From Amniculibacterium aquaticum (GTDB lineage: Bacteria; Bacteroidota; Bacteroidia; Flavobacteriales; Weeksellaceae): 39,530 nucleotides of DNA. This document shows, piece by piece, positions 3,123 to 21,992 of the stretch; position 1 is the stretch's first letter, and every line of letters starts with the position of its first letter. A program made the translations under genes and the position numbers. A model generated the notes under the pieces. That model searched no databases, was not told where the DNA came from, and was given only the letters and a program-made list of their open reading frames with translations. The stretch covers positions 1-39,530 of the forward strand of contig NZ_REFA01000021.1 in the NCBI RefSeq assembly GCF_003852705.1. Direction: 5' to 3'.

Positions 3123-4697
3123 ATGAAAACAATAAAATTCAAAAATAAATTTATAAAATACGGATTGGCTCTTACGGTTTTAGCATCTGTAACTTCATGT
3201 TCTGTAGATTCAGAACGAAACATCAACGATGAATACGGCCAAACTCAAGAACAACAAATGCAAGGTCTTACCATTGTAAAAGCTCCATTAGAAAATCTAA
3301 TGTCCAGCATTGTTATGGTAACTCCGGAGTGGCAATTCCAGTTGCAACAAAACCTTATGGGTGATGTTTTTTCCGGATATATGGCGCCACCAACTCCTTT
3401 TGCTGGAGACAGCAACAACACCCACTACAACCTAGTCGATGGTTGGAATCAGTATCCTTGGACCATTGCCTATACAGGAGTTTTGCCTAATGCTTTTAAA
3501 GTTGAAAATCGTGCAGCACAACTCAATCTTCCACAGTTTTTAGGCATCGCAAAAATCCTAAAAGTAGAAGGGATGCACAGGATTTCCGATATCTACGGAC
3601 CGATCATCTATTCTCATTTTGGCGAAAATGCTGCAGGTGATAAATTTGACACTCAAAAAGAAGCGTATTATGCATTTTTTGCCGATTTGGACGCCGGTAT
3701 TGCAGCTCTTAAAGATGCACAGAATAAAGGATTGGTTCTAGATCCAAGTGCAGACATCAGTGCTTTTGGTGGAAATTTGGCTAAATGGATCAAATTTGGT
3801 AATTCACTACGATTAAGATTGGCTCTTCGTATCTCTGGTGTAGATCCTGTGAAAGCCAAAACCGAAGGCGAAAAAGCATTGTCCGATTTAGGAGGTTTGA
3901 TGTCCAATAATACAGAAAATTTTATCGTGAACAAACCCAATCCTCTTGGAGTGATCAATTCATGGGGCGACACCAGAATGGGAGCTTCTATGGAATCCAT
4001 TCTCAACGGGTTGCAAGACCCAAGAGTGGGTAAATATTTTACGAAAAACACCTTCAGCAACTCATATACAGGTATTAGACAAGGGATAGACATTACCGCT
4101 CACGGTGGAAAGGACTCTTATGTGAAAAATTCAGGCATCAATTCGGATATGTTTTCTCAGATCCAATTGATGACCGCTTCTGAAGTACAATTTCTAATTG
4201 CTGAAGCCAAATTGAAAAATTGGAACACCAACGGTATTTCTTCAGAAACGGCGTACAATAACGGTATTCAGTTGTCTTTTGCACAGTACGGACTCACTGC
4301 GGGTTCTTACATCACCAATACCAGCAATACACCTGCAAATTATGTAGATGCATTCAACCCGGATAATAACATCAATGCAGCTTCTCAGGTAACCATCGCA
4401 TGGAATAACGCCGATACCGACGCTTTGAAATTAGAAAAAATCATTACTCAAAAATGGATTTCCGGTTTCCCAGATGGACAAGAAGCTTGGTCGGAATTCA
4501 GAAGAACAGGCTATCCTAAACTTTTCCCAGTAAAACTGAATAAAAGTGGTGGATTGATCAGTACTACCGAATTCATTAAGAGAATTAATTTCCCAGCTTC
4601 CGAAAAATCAACCAATCCAACAAATGTTTCTGCAGCTGTAGGAATGCTTGGCGGACCGGATAACGGAGGTACCAATCTTTGGTGGGATGTAAATTAA
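3123..4697 (+). CDS. SusD/RagB-family nutrient-binding outer-membrane lipoprotein
   Basis: This 524-residue surface lipoprotein is the glycan-binding partner of the upstream SusC. The signal peptide ends in the lipobox VTSC with the acylated Cys at residue 26. Acidic residues follow (CSVDSE), which fits a surface-export signal in Bacteroidota. The body is helix-rich and looks like the second SusD-like group (SusD/RagB nutrient-binding lipoproteins), with conserved-looking blocks such as MTASEVQFLIAEAKL and QKWISGFPDGQEAWSEFRRTGYP near the C-terminus. It lies 10 nt behind susC and is followed by a strong intrinsic terminator, so susCD forms a two-gene unit. Ligand specificity cannot be read from the sequence; the nagB-like and hexosaminidase neighbours suggest GlcNAc-containing oligosaccharides. 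Confidence 0.92.
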   Translation: MKTIKFKNKFIKYGLALTVLASVTSCSVDSERNINDEYGQTQEQQMQGLTIVKAPLENLMSSIVMVTPEWQFQLQQNLMGDVFSGYMAPPTPFAGDSNNTHYNLVDGWNQYPWTIAYTGVLPNAFKVENRAAQLNLPQFLGIAKILKVEGMHRISDIYGPIIYSHFGENAAGDKFDTQKEAYYAFFADLDAGIAALKDAQNKGLVLDPSADISAFGGNLAKWIKFGNSLRLRLALRISGVDPVKAKTEGEKALSDLGGLMSNNTENFIVNKPNPLGVINSWGDTRMGASMESILNGLQDPRVGKYFTKNTFSNSYTGIRQGIDITAHGGKDSYVKNSGINSDMFSQIQLMTASEVQFLIAEAKLKNWNTNGISSETAYNNGIQLSFAQYGLTAGSYITNTSNTPANYVDAFNPDNNINAASQVTIAWNNADTDALKLEKIITQKWISGFPDGQEAWSEFRRTGYPKLFPVKLNKSGGLISTTEFIKRINFPASEKSTNPTNVSAAVGMLGGPDNGGTNLWWDVN

Positions 4698-20277: not shown

Positions 20278-21360
20278 ATGGAAAATTTCATCGTATCAGC
20301 AAGAAAGTATAGACCGCAAGAGTTTGAAACTGTTGTGGGACAATCGCACATTACCGATACTTTGGAACACGCCATCGACAACAACCAGTTGGCTCAAGCT
20401 TTATTGTTTTGTGGACCTAGAGGTGTAGGGAAAACCACTTGCGCAAGGATTTTAGCTAGAAAAATTAACGAAAAAGACGGATCGACTTCCGAAGATGGAT
20501 TTGCATACAACATTTATGAGTTGGATGCGGCATCCAACAACTCGGTGGACGATATCCGTGACCTGATCGACCAGGTTCGTTTTGCACCACAAGTAGGGCA
20601 GTACAAAGTGTACATCATCGACGAGGTGCACATGCTTTCTCAAGCGGCTTTCAATGCTTTTTTGAAAACTTTAGAAGAACCTCCTGCGCATGCCATTTTT
20701 ATCTTGGCAACCACAGAAAAACATAAAATTATCCCAACCATTCTTTCCCGATGTCAGATTTATGATTTCAAAAGAATTACCATTGAGGATATCGAAAATC
20801 ATCTTAAAAAAATTGCCGAAAGAGAGCACATTCAATATGAAGATGATGCGCTTTATTTGGTAGCACAAAAAGCAGATGGAGCACTTAGAGATGCACTTTC
20901 TATTTTTGACCGTCTTTCAACATTTACTCAGAAAAACATTACCCTAGCCAAAGCTGCAGAAGTTCTGAATATTTTAGATTACGATCAGTATCTTAATATG
21001 GTCGATTTGGCAAAAGAAAATAAAATTCCGGAGGTCTTATCCGCCTTTAATGAAATTGTAAAAAAAGGTTTTGATCCACATTTGTTCATTGCAGGATTGG
21101 GACACCATTTTCGCGATTTGATGATGGCTCAAAATCCATTGACTTTGGAACTGATCGAAGTGGGCGAAAAAACCAAACAGAAATTTGCCGAACAGTGTCA
21201 GAAATGGACACCTCAACAATTGATTGATGGTATTGAAATTTGTAACCATGCCGACATTAATTATAAAAATTCTAAAAATCCGAGATTGACTGTAGAAATT
21301 GCTTTGATGCAACTGAGCAGTCTAACCGCCGGTTTAGAACCTAAAAAAAAAAATTCTTAA
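20278..21360 (+). CDS. dnaX: DNA polymerase III clamp-loader subunit, gamma-form (zero-frame product of dnaX)
   Basis: This 360-residue AAA+ ATPase is the motor of the sliding-clamp loader. Walker A is GPRGVGKT (46-53). The Walker B/DExx-type motif is IIDEVHML (113-120), followed by SQAAFNAFLKTLEEPPAHAIFILATTEKHKIIPTILSRCQ with the SRC arginine-finger motif, then the lid and collar domains to about 350. The four-Cys zinc cluster of E. coli DnaX between Walker A and ELDAASNNSVDDIRD is missing; the segment is a short Cys-free loop. The frame stops at TAA 21358-21360, right after an A11 run (21343-21353). A -1 shift in that run opens a further 212 or so codons typical of the DnaX C-terminus, so this ORF probably encodes the short (gamma-like) form and the full product is 571 residues. 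Confidence 0.93.
   Translation: MENFIVSARKYRPQEFETVVGQSHITDTLEHAIDNNQLAQALLFCGPRGVGKTTCARILARKINEKDGSTSEDGFAYNIYELDAASNNSVDDIRDLIDQVRFAPQVGQYKVYIIDEVHMLSQAAFNAFLKTLEEPPAHAIFILATTEKHKIIPTILSRCQIYDFKRITIEDIENHLKKIAEREHIQYEDDALYLVAQKADGALRDALSIFDRLSTFTQKNITLAKAAEVLNILDYDQYLNMVDLAKENKIPEVLSAFNEIVKKGFDPHLFIAGLGHHFRDLMMAQNPLTLELIEVGEKTKQKFAEQCQKWTPQQLIDGIEICNHADINYKNSKNPRLTVEIALMQLSSLTAGLEPKKKNS
21343..21353 (+). promoter_or_regulatory. A11 slippery run in dnaX (candidate frameshift or slippage site)
   Basis: Eleven consecutive A residues follow GAACCT and precede TTCTTAA. In zero frame translation ends five codons after CCT (AAA AAA AAA AAT TCT TAA). One extra A, or a -1 ribosomal shift, gives four AAA codons followed by TTC TTA ATA and continuous reading to 21992. 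Confidence 0.75.
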
Positions 21361-21992
21361 TATTAGCTCCGATCTTTAGTGAGATCGATACAAAAACGGT
21401 AACCCAACCTAAAACAGCCAAAGAAAATACCGCTTCAACTTCTGTTGCTACCGAAAAAAAGGTGGTTAATGAACCTCTTCATGAAATAAAAAAAGTGGTT
21501 GAAAAAACCTCGCAACCCATTTCTTCCAGTTTGGGAAATTCTAAATTTTCCATCCAAGGCTTTCTGACAAAAAAAGAAGAAAAAGAAGAAAACAAATCTG
21601 CGGATGCTAACACCGAGAAGCTTCCTAGAAATCATTTTACCGAAACCGATTTGCAAAACGAATGGAATTATTTCTTGAAAACTTTGCAAAAAAATGATGC
21701 AGTTGCGTACAACGCCATCAACGGATTTTCTGTCGTAAAAATTGGTGAAGATGATATTGAAATTACCTATTCATCGGAATCTGCAAAAGAAGAGTTTGAT
21801 AAATGCAGGGATCAATTTGTCAATCATTTCAAGCAAAAAGTACATCATTACACCCTTAACCTAAACTATAAAAAAGTGGAAGGTGCTGTCAAGGTAGAAA
21901 TAATCACCAAAAGGAAAAAATTTGAAAAGTTGGTTGAGATCAATCCATTATTAAAGGATTTGAACGATTTGCTCAATTTTGATCTTTCATAA
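21345..21992 (+). CDS. dnaX: dnaX tau-specific C-terminal extension, reached by -1 frameshift
   Basis: This frame is open from the A11 run to TAA at 21990-21992 and lies in the -1 frame relative to the upstream dnaX ORF. Joining the two by one backward slip gives exactly 572 codons (571 residues plus stop). The first 80 or so residues form a Lys/Thr-rich, low-complexity linker. The last 120 (ETDLQNEWNYFLKTLQKN ... EEFDKCRDQFVNHFKQKVHHYTLNLNYKK) resemble the C-terminal domain of full-length flavobacterial DnaX, which would contact the polymerase. No good independent start exists: the first candidate is a GTG at 21462, well inside the open frame. A single-base assembly error in the homopolymer is the main alternative. 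Confidence 0.75.
   Translation, partial: KKKFLILAPIFSEIDTKTVTQPKTAKENTASTSVATEKKVVNEPLHEIKKVVEKTSQPISSSLGNSKFSIQGFLTKKEEKEENKSADANTEKLPRNHFTETDLQNEWNYFLKTLQKNDAVAYNAINGFSVVKIGEDDIEITYSSESAKEEFDKCRDQFVNHFKQKVHHYTLNLNYKKVEGAVKVEIITKRKKFEKLVEINPLLKDLNDLLNFDLS
21370..21387 (+). promoter_or_regulatory. Hairpin downstream of the dnaX A11 run
   Basis: CGATCT (21370-21375) and AGATCG (21382-21387) form a perfect 6-bp stem with a 6-nt loop, starting 16 nt after the A11 run and 9 nt after the zero-frame stop. It could stimulate frameshifting, although the spacer is longer than in classical ribosomal -1 sites. It lacks a U-tail, so it is not a terminator. Confidence 0.45.

Follow-up and report, generated by a model that had tools for sequence, protein, structure and literature searches.

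A dnaX gene of Amniculibacterium aquaticum divided at an A11 run: probable polymerase slippage and its counterparts across Bacteroidota

A single dnaX gene of Amniculibacterium aquaticum probably gives rise to both clamp-loader subunits, the short gamma and the long tau, through slipping of RNA polymerase on a run of 11 A's, a reading to which we assign a probability of about 0.73. The gene lies on a contig of 39,530 nt (NZ_REFA01000021.1, positions 1 to 39,530), here called the window, by which we mean the whole stretch of DNA analysed, from a genome of 2.55 Mb. RNA polymerase slipping on the A11 run would produce mRNAs with varying numbers of A's. Translation of the unslipped mRNA would end at a TAA just past the run and yield gamma, and an mRNA that had gained one A (or lost two) would join the −1 frame and yield a tau form of about 571 aa. 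From the sequence we infer the existence of both products, their ratio and the slipping of the polymerase rather than the ribosome; polymerase slippage is more likely than ribosomal slippage, and both may act. A gene that annotation could halve or label as a pseudogene would then be a conserved, two-product replisome gene.

Layout of the dnaX locus

The zero-frame ORF of dnaX (20278..21360, + strand, 360 aa) reads as a gamma-like clamp-loader subunit with AAA+ domains and domain III, and matched the Pfam profiles PF13177, PF22608 and PF12169 and the NCBIfam profile TIGR02397 (E 3e-117). The encoded protein is 89% identical to DnaX of Chryseobacterium lathyri and 84% identical to that of Halpernia humi, both Weeksellaceae. 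It ends in LEP-KKK-N-S, immediately followed by the TAA that would close the gamma form (21358..21360, + strand). The slippery A11 run (21343..21353, + strand) sits at the junction of domains III and IV, because the domain III profile, PF12169, stops at residue 357, the point at which the run starts. The −1 frame (21345..21992, + strand) is open for 212 codons past the run, plus a stop, and constitutes a putative tau-specific C-terminal part; it matched NCBIfam PRK14971 gamma/tau over profile positions 420–613 of 614 (E 3e-17), and no Pfam profile above the cut-off. The initial annotation had described a dnaX split at A11, with the −1 frame open to 21992 and a product of 571 residues. Our recount agreed with this description: adding one A to the run gave 571 codons up to the first stop, removing two gave 570, and removing one or adding two gave 366 and 367, respectively.

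Long homopolymers are found at few comparable places in this genome. The window contains four A/T runs of at least 9 nt, and only that in dnaX falls inside a gene of the ORF list. Across the genome we counted 40 distinct A/T runs of at least 10 nt after collapsing matches, including that of dnaX, and 36 of the 39 others were either outside open frames of 120 or more codons or no more than 15 codons from an end of one. Two other open frames contain a sense A10 deep inside and could be slippage genes, namely in L150 (around 1501–1510, codon 58 of 199) and in L399 (around 1084–1093, codon 182 of 214). A scan of the frame-switch site for terminator-like and promoter-like elements produced a single promoter-like match, on the other strand, and no terminator-like elements.

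Conservation of the run, the stop and the tau part

A search at E 1e-60 of the family group containing the window (f1, hereafter the family) returned dnaX from 318 out of 320 genomes. The family set comprised 144 distinct genes taken from the 318 matching genomes, two of which come from the named collection; identical sequences were counted once and L282 (an upstream stretch) was dropped. Of these genes, 142 were split, all at the same place, at a run of A9–A12 (98 A10, 41 A11, two A12 and one A9), the floor of 9 being partly of our own making, as our definition of split requires a run of at least 9. The conservation of both run and split among relatives, to which the initial annotation had looked for support, was thus borne out. 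One of the two exceptions, L057, is the sole uninterrupted dnaX of the family and still has an A11 at the junction. The other, L310 (genome G065, single contig), is interrupted at an A6 around codon 260, off the junction, perhaps through an assembly error. An uninterrupted dnaX without the homopolymer, which had been named as the observation that would speak against slippage, was therefore absent from the family; such genes exist elsewhere in the phylum, for example in Bacteroides.

The tau part was in the −1 frame in 141 of the 142 split family genes, and in +1 in L303, the gene with A9. This register is held by paired changes, such that A10 is followed by G and A11 by T, or the run starts earlier within its codon. 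Homopolymer runs mutate fast and the register is nevertheless nearly constant, indicating that the frames are not interchangeable within the family. At 12 other conserved Lys columns of the family, AAA was used in only 49–88% of cases.

The zero-frame stop was evaluated by synonymously shuffling the tau-frame codons past the junction, according to the codon usage of the gene concerned. A stop within five codons occurred in 99% of the 142 family genes (63% expected), in 100% of the 44 split genes from other Flavobacteriales (38% expected) and in 100% of the 22 named split genes (64% expected), although these synonymous tests count related species separately and their significance is thereby overstated. 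We picked the other-Flavobacteriales set (n = 49) by hand so that most of its genes would be split, which makes the proportion of split genes in it meaningless, and the named loci (n = 78) are the best matches to the window dnaX. On average, the stop in the family was no closer than in the shuffles (mean P 0.55); the signal resides in the missing late stops.

Codon choice was most conspicuous in the second tau codon of the family genes in −1 (n = 141), where Ile was encoded by ATA in 19 of 19 cases, versus 14% elsewhere in the same genes, and Leu by CTT or CTC in none of 100, versus 31% elsewhere. Keeping the stop is not the sole bias at this codon, because TTG, a Leu codon that would also give a stop, was equally absent (0 of 100, versus 19% elsewhere). 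The zero-frame stop, whose conservation had also been anticipated, is thus conserved and apparently under selection through codon choice.

The tau extension showed dN/dS values of 0.03–0.18 in 11 pairs of our choosing, and the N-terminal part was tighter (0.00–0.02); in a twelfth pair, the window against its congener, dS was saturated. By this measure, the −1 part evolves as protein.

Continuous relatives and tau registers across the phylum

We compared 270 distinct genes in a FastTree phylogeny with many weak forks, leaving out L310; 208 had a run and were split, 58 were continuous and four were neither. On this tree we counted 21 changes between split and continuous, eight of them forced by well-supported branches, and eight changes of direction among split genes. 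The junction carried a run of A9–A11 in 51 of the 58 continuous genes (44 A10, five A11 and two A9).

A sample of the phylum (n = 70, with the 30 best-scoring loci and 40 loci of our choosing) was inspected for runs from −60 to +240 nt. Of the 25 genes belonging to other families of the class, 22 had a run of at least 9 near the junction, as did 25 of the 45 belonging to other classes. Thirteen of the 70 genes were split, all of them with the run and with the tau part in −1; L379, a short gene of this sample (460 codons), keeps frame. Among the dnaX genes without the run are those of Bacteroides, several Bacteroidales and 20 of the 45 sampled from other classes.

The shifted frames of 84 run-bearing continuous genes were checked for early stops: within five codons, the frame reached by insertion of an A had one in 98% (53% expected), the frame reached by deletion of an A in 69% (33% expected), and both shifted frames in 67% (17% expected). 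Among 30 continuous genes without the run, both shifted-frame stops were present in 10%, evaluated at a fixed place. This enrichment is as if slips went both ways. Because both shifted frames are enriched in stops behind the run, the continuous genes with a run look built to yield a short product through slippage, like the gene of Thermus.

In the genes examined, the tau part was in frame 0, in −1 or, for nine genes, in +1. The latter are L303 in f1, L248 in f2, L250, L251 and L262 in f3, L275 in f7, and the named loci L068, L083 and L098, all of them resting on assemblies in which errors are possible. L068 and L262, both with A9, share 86.5% nucleotide identity, and L068 is closer (89.3%) to L069, a gene with A10, than to L262. 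L250 and L251 are 97.5% alike, and the extension of L098 is of only 124 codons.

We consider it fairly probable that dnaX of Bacteroidota contains an ancient polymerase-slippage cassette at the junction of domains III and IV, consisting of a run of A9–A12 and near stops in the non-tau frames, in which the tau part could have moved many times among frames 0, −1 and +1 with both subunits kept; split and continuous dnaX genes would then represent one mechanism. In such a cassette, tau could shift frames without losing a subunit because slipped transcripts would fill all three frames.

Several short genes, with runs of 2–6, fell outside our definition of split, namely L116 (cut near the contig end), L132, L143, L134 and L310. 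L132 and L143, from Bacteroidales MAGs with gamma parts 83% identical, lack an A run and have an in-frame TAG (2788–2790 and 3599–3601, respectively) between the gamma part and a tau part of 201 and 254 codons, with no change of frame; the tau part opens with the conserved motif IARSPQA[GE]HG and continues with diverged sequence. This TAG looks like a case of stop-codon readthrough, which would be another route to gamma and tau; when 395 genomes of the class were searched, allowing up to three mismatches, the single match lacked the TAG. In L134, the zero frame stops at codon 383 (around 3649) and a tau-like open frame of some 247 codons follows in +1, without a long A run, reflecting either another type of switch or an assembly error.

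Alternative mechanisms and known dnaX systems

Programmed −1 ribosomal frameshifting on A_AAA_AAA, aided by a hairpin in some lineages, would make tau and leave gamma as the unshifted product, an account that we regard as unlikely. It agrees with the presence of the heptamer in 142 of 142 split family genes and with the −1 register of all but one of them, and tandem −1 slippage is possible because A_AAA_AAA is contained in every run. Additionally, a 2016 review, in the portion accessible to us, treats the reversed type of dnaX as a case of ribosomal frameshifting (PMC5009743). The same portion, however, states that, in E. coli, A_AAA_AAA shifts far less readily than A_AAA_AAG (PMC5009743), and none of the 142 split family genes contains A_AAA_AAG in the zero frame. 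Likewise, Shine-Dalgarno motifs upstream of the run are rare in the family (3 of 142 for 5 nt and 15 of 142 for 4 nt), and none was seen by eye upstream of the run in the window.

The split genes of other Flavobacteriales speak against the polymerase, since 35 of the 44 contain A_AAA_AAG and 39 show, in the 18 nt upstream of the run, a Shine-Dalgarno-like motif of 4 nt, which adjoins the run in the sequences inspected. On the side of the polymerase, Shine-Dalgarno sequences are rarely used for initiation and prfB frameshifting is low in Flavobacterium johnsoniae, which belongs to the phylum, according to the available part of the report (PMC12421855).

The length of the run and the direction of the shift weigh in favour of the polymerase. 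Seven A's would be enough for the ribosome, yet we found no split gene with a run of 7 or 8, bearing in mind that the definition required at least 9; no gene of any kind had a junction run of 8, and L139 of the first set, with a run of 7, is continuous. Moreover, −1 ribosomal slippage cannot serve the nine split genes that need a +1 shift. We thus favour slippage by the polymerase over −1 slippage by the ribosome, because the run is kept in continuous relatives together with shifted-frame stops and because the tau part occurs in frames 0, −1 and +1.

The initial annotation had also reported a hairpin behind the run, and its presence in the window held up, with six perfect pairs and one G-U pair located 16 nt past the run (21370..21387, + strand). 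Its MFE of −10.5 (z −2.56) was equalled by four of 200 dinucleotide shuffles, and it was better than synonymous shuffles (P 0.03). Its generality did not hold up, and we rejected the hairpin as a general core signal, with mean P values in synonymous shuffles of 0.31 for the family, 0.62 for other Flavobacteriales and 0.53 for the named set. The family value is driven by genus g5: among 101 of the 142 split family genes, the 55 from g5 had a mean z of −2.16 and 80% of them had P<0.1, versus a mean z of −0.29 and 20% for the 46 from other genera. In the congener L005, the hairpin was no better than expected (P 0.40). The 36 nt upstream of the run gave no signal of structure (mean P 0.46). Loci L011–L017 and others of g5 retain a stem of about seven pairs, some 17–36 nt past the run, beyond what codon choice explains.

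The hairpins of the window and of g5 are arguments for the ribosome, and that of g5 is not explained by polymerase slippage; the distance of 16 nt and the lack of excess structure in most other genera, in the congener and in other Flavobacteriales are arguments against it. The hairpin is probably not needed for the frame switch. The stimulator hairpin of E. coli dnaX is closer to its slip site than the 16 nt of the window.

It is very improbable that the locus comprises two separate genes, for gamma and for an independently started C-terminal protein: the mechanical ORF list does give two ORFs at dnaX, of which the second starts with GTG at 21462, but the −1 frame of the window contains no ATG, 107 of the 142 family extensions lack an ATG in their first 60 codons, and the two frames meet inside the run in the 208 split genes and are fused in continuous relatives. 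A sequencing error or a pseudogene is scarcely credible, even though homopolymers are error-prone and L310 of the family looks broken elsewhere in dnaX, because the same split at an A9–A12 run in 142 of 144 family genes indicates that it is not an error, the dN/dS of the extension is well under 1 and the stop is kept through codon choice. The slippage proposed in the initial annotation is thus supported overall, as a reading of sequence data.

A two-ORF dnaX with ten A's was already described in 2013, and the window adds one case. In the consulted part of that GeneTack study, Antonov et al. listed 17 two-ORF dnaX genes from 12 genera, all in −1 and nine of them with ten A's, and proposed transcriptional realignment, of which they consider opposite directions within one function to be a sign (PMC3711429). 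As in those genes, the window has gamma and tau in adjacent ORFs, with tau in −1 and about ten A's (A11) at the transition. Unlike the set presented in that part (PMC3711429), Bacteroidota also retain the run where dnaX is continuous and include +1 registers. The terms Flavobacteri-, Chryseobacterium, Riemerella and Pedobacter are absent from the main text of PMC3711429, whose supplement shows the nine sequences. In a search that covered mainly openly accessible main texts, we found no published account of the run throughout the phylum, of its retention in continuous genes or of split genes in +1, and the phylum-wide extension appears to be unreported in the searchable literature.

Many dnaX genes of the phylum, including continuous ones, look built for a short gamma via slippage, and phylum-wide production of gamma in this way would bear on its importance beyond E. 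coli. The three registers are also natural constructs for separating polymerase from ribosome slippage.

According to the accessible portions of two sources, E. coli dnaX produces its two subunits by −1 ribosomal frameshifting at A_AAA_AAG (PMC3711429, PMC5009743). The window resembles it in having a hairpin behind the site, and differs in lacking a zero-frame A_AAA_AAG and a Shine-Dalgarno stimulator, in its longer run, in having gamma in the zero frame, and in a hairpin that is farther off and not general among relatives. The review, as far as consulted, also mentions bacteria in which tau is the frameshifted product (PMC5009743).

In Thermus thermophilus, as described in the accessible portions of two sources, transcriptional slippage on an A9 run of dnaX generates mRNA in all three frames and both short and long products (PMC1088944, PMC5009743). 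The window shares with Thermus a sense run of at least nine A's in dnaX. The roles of the frames are exchanged, however: Thermus reads tau in the zero frame and obtains gamma from slipped mRNA, whereas the window has gamma in the zero frame and tau in −1. The Thermus arrangement itself, with tau in the zero frame behind the run, is that of the 84 continuous relatives, 67% of which have stops in both shifted frames.
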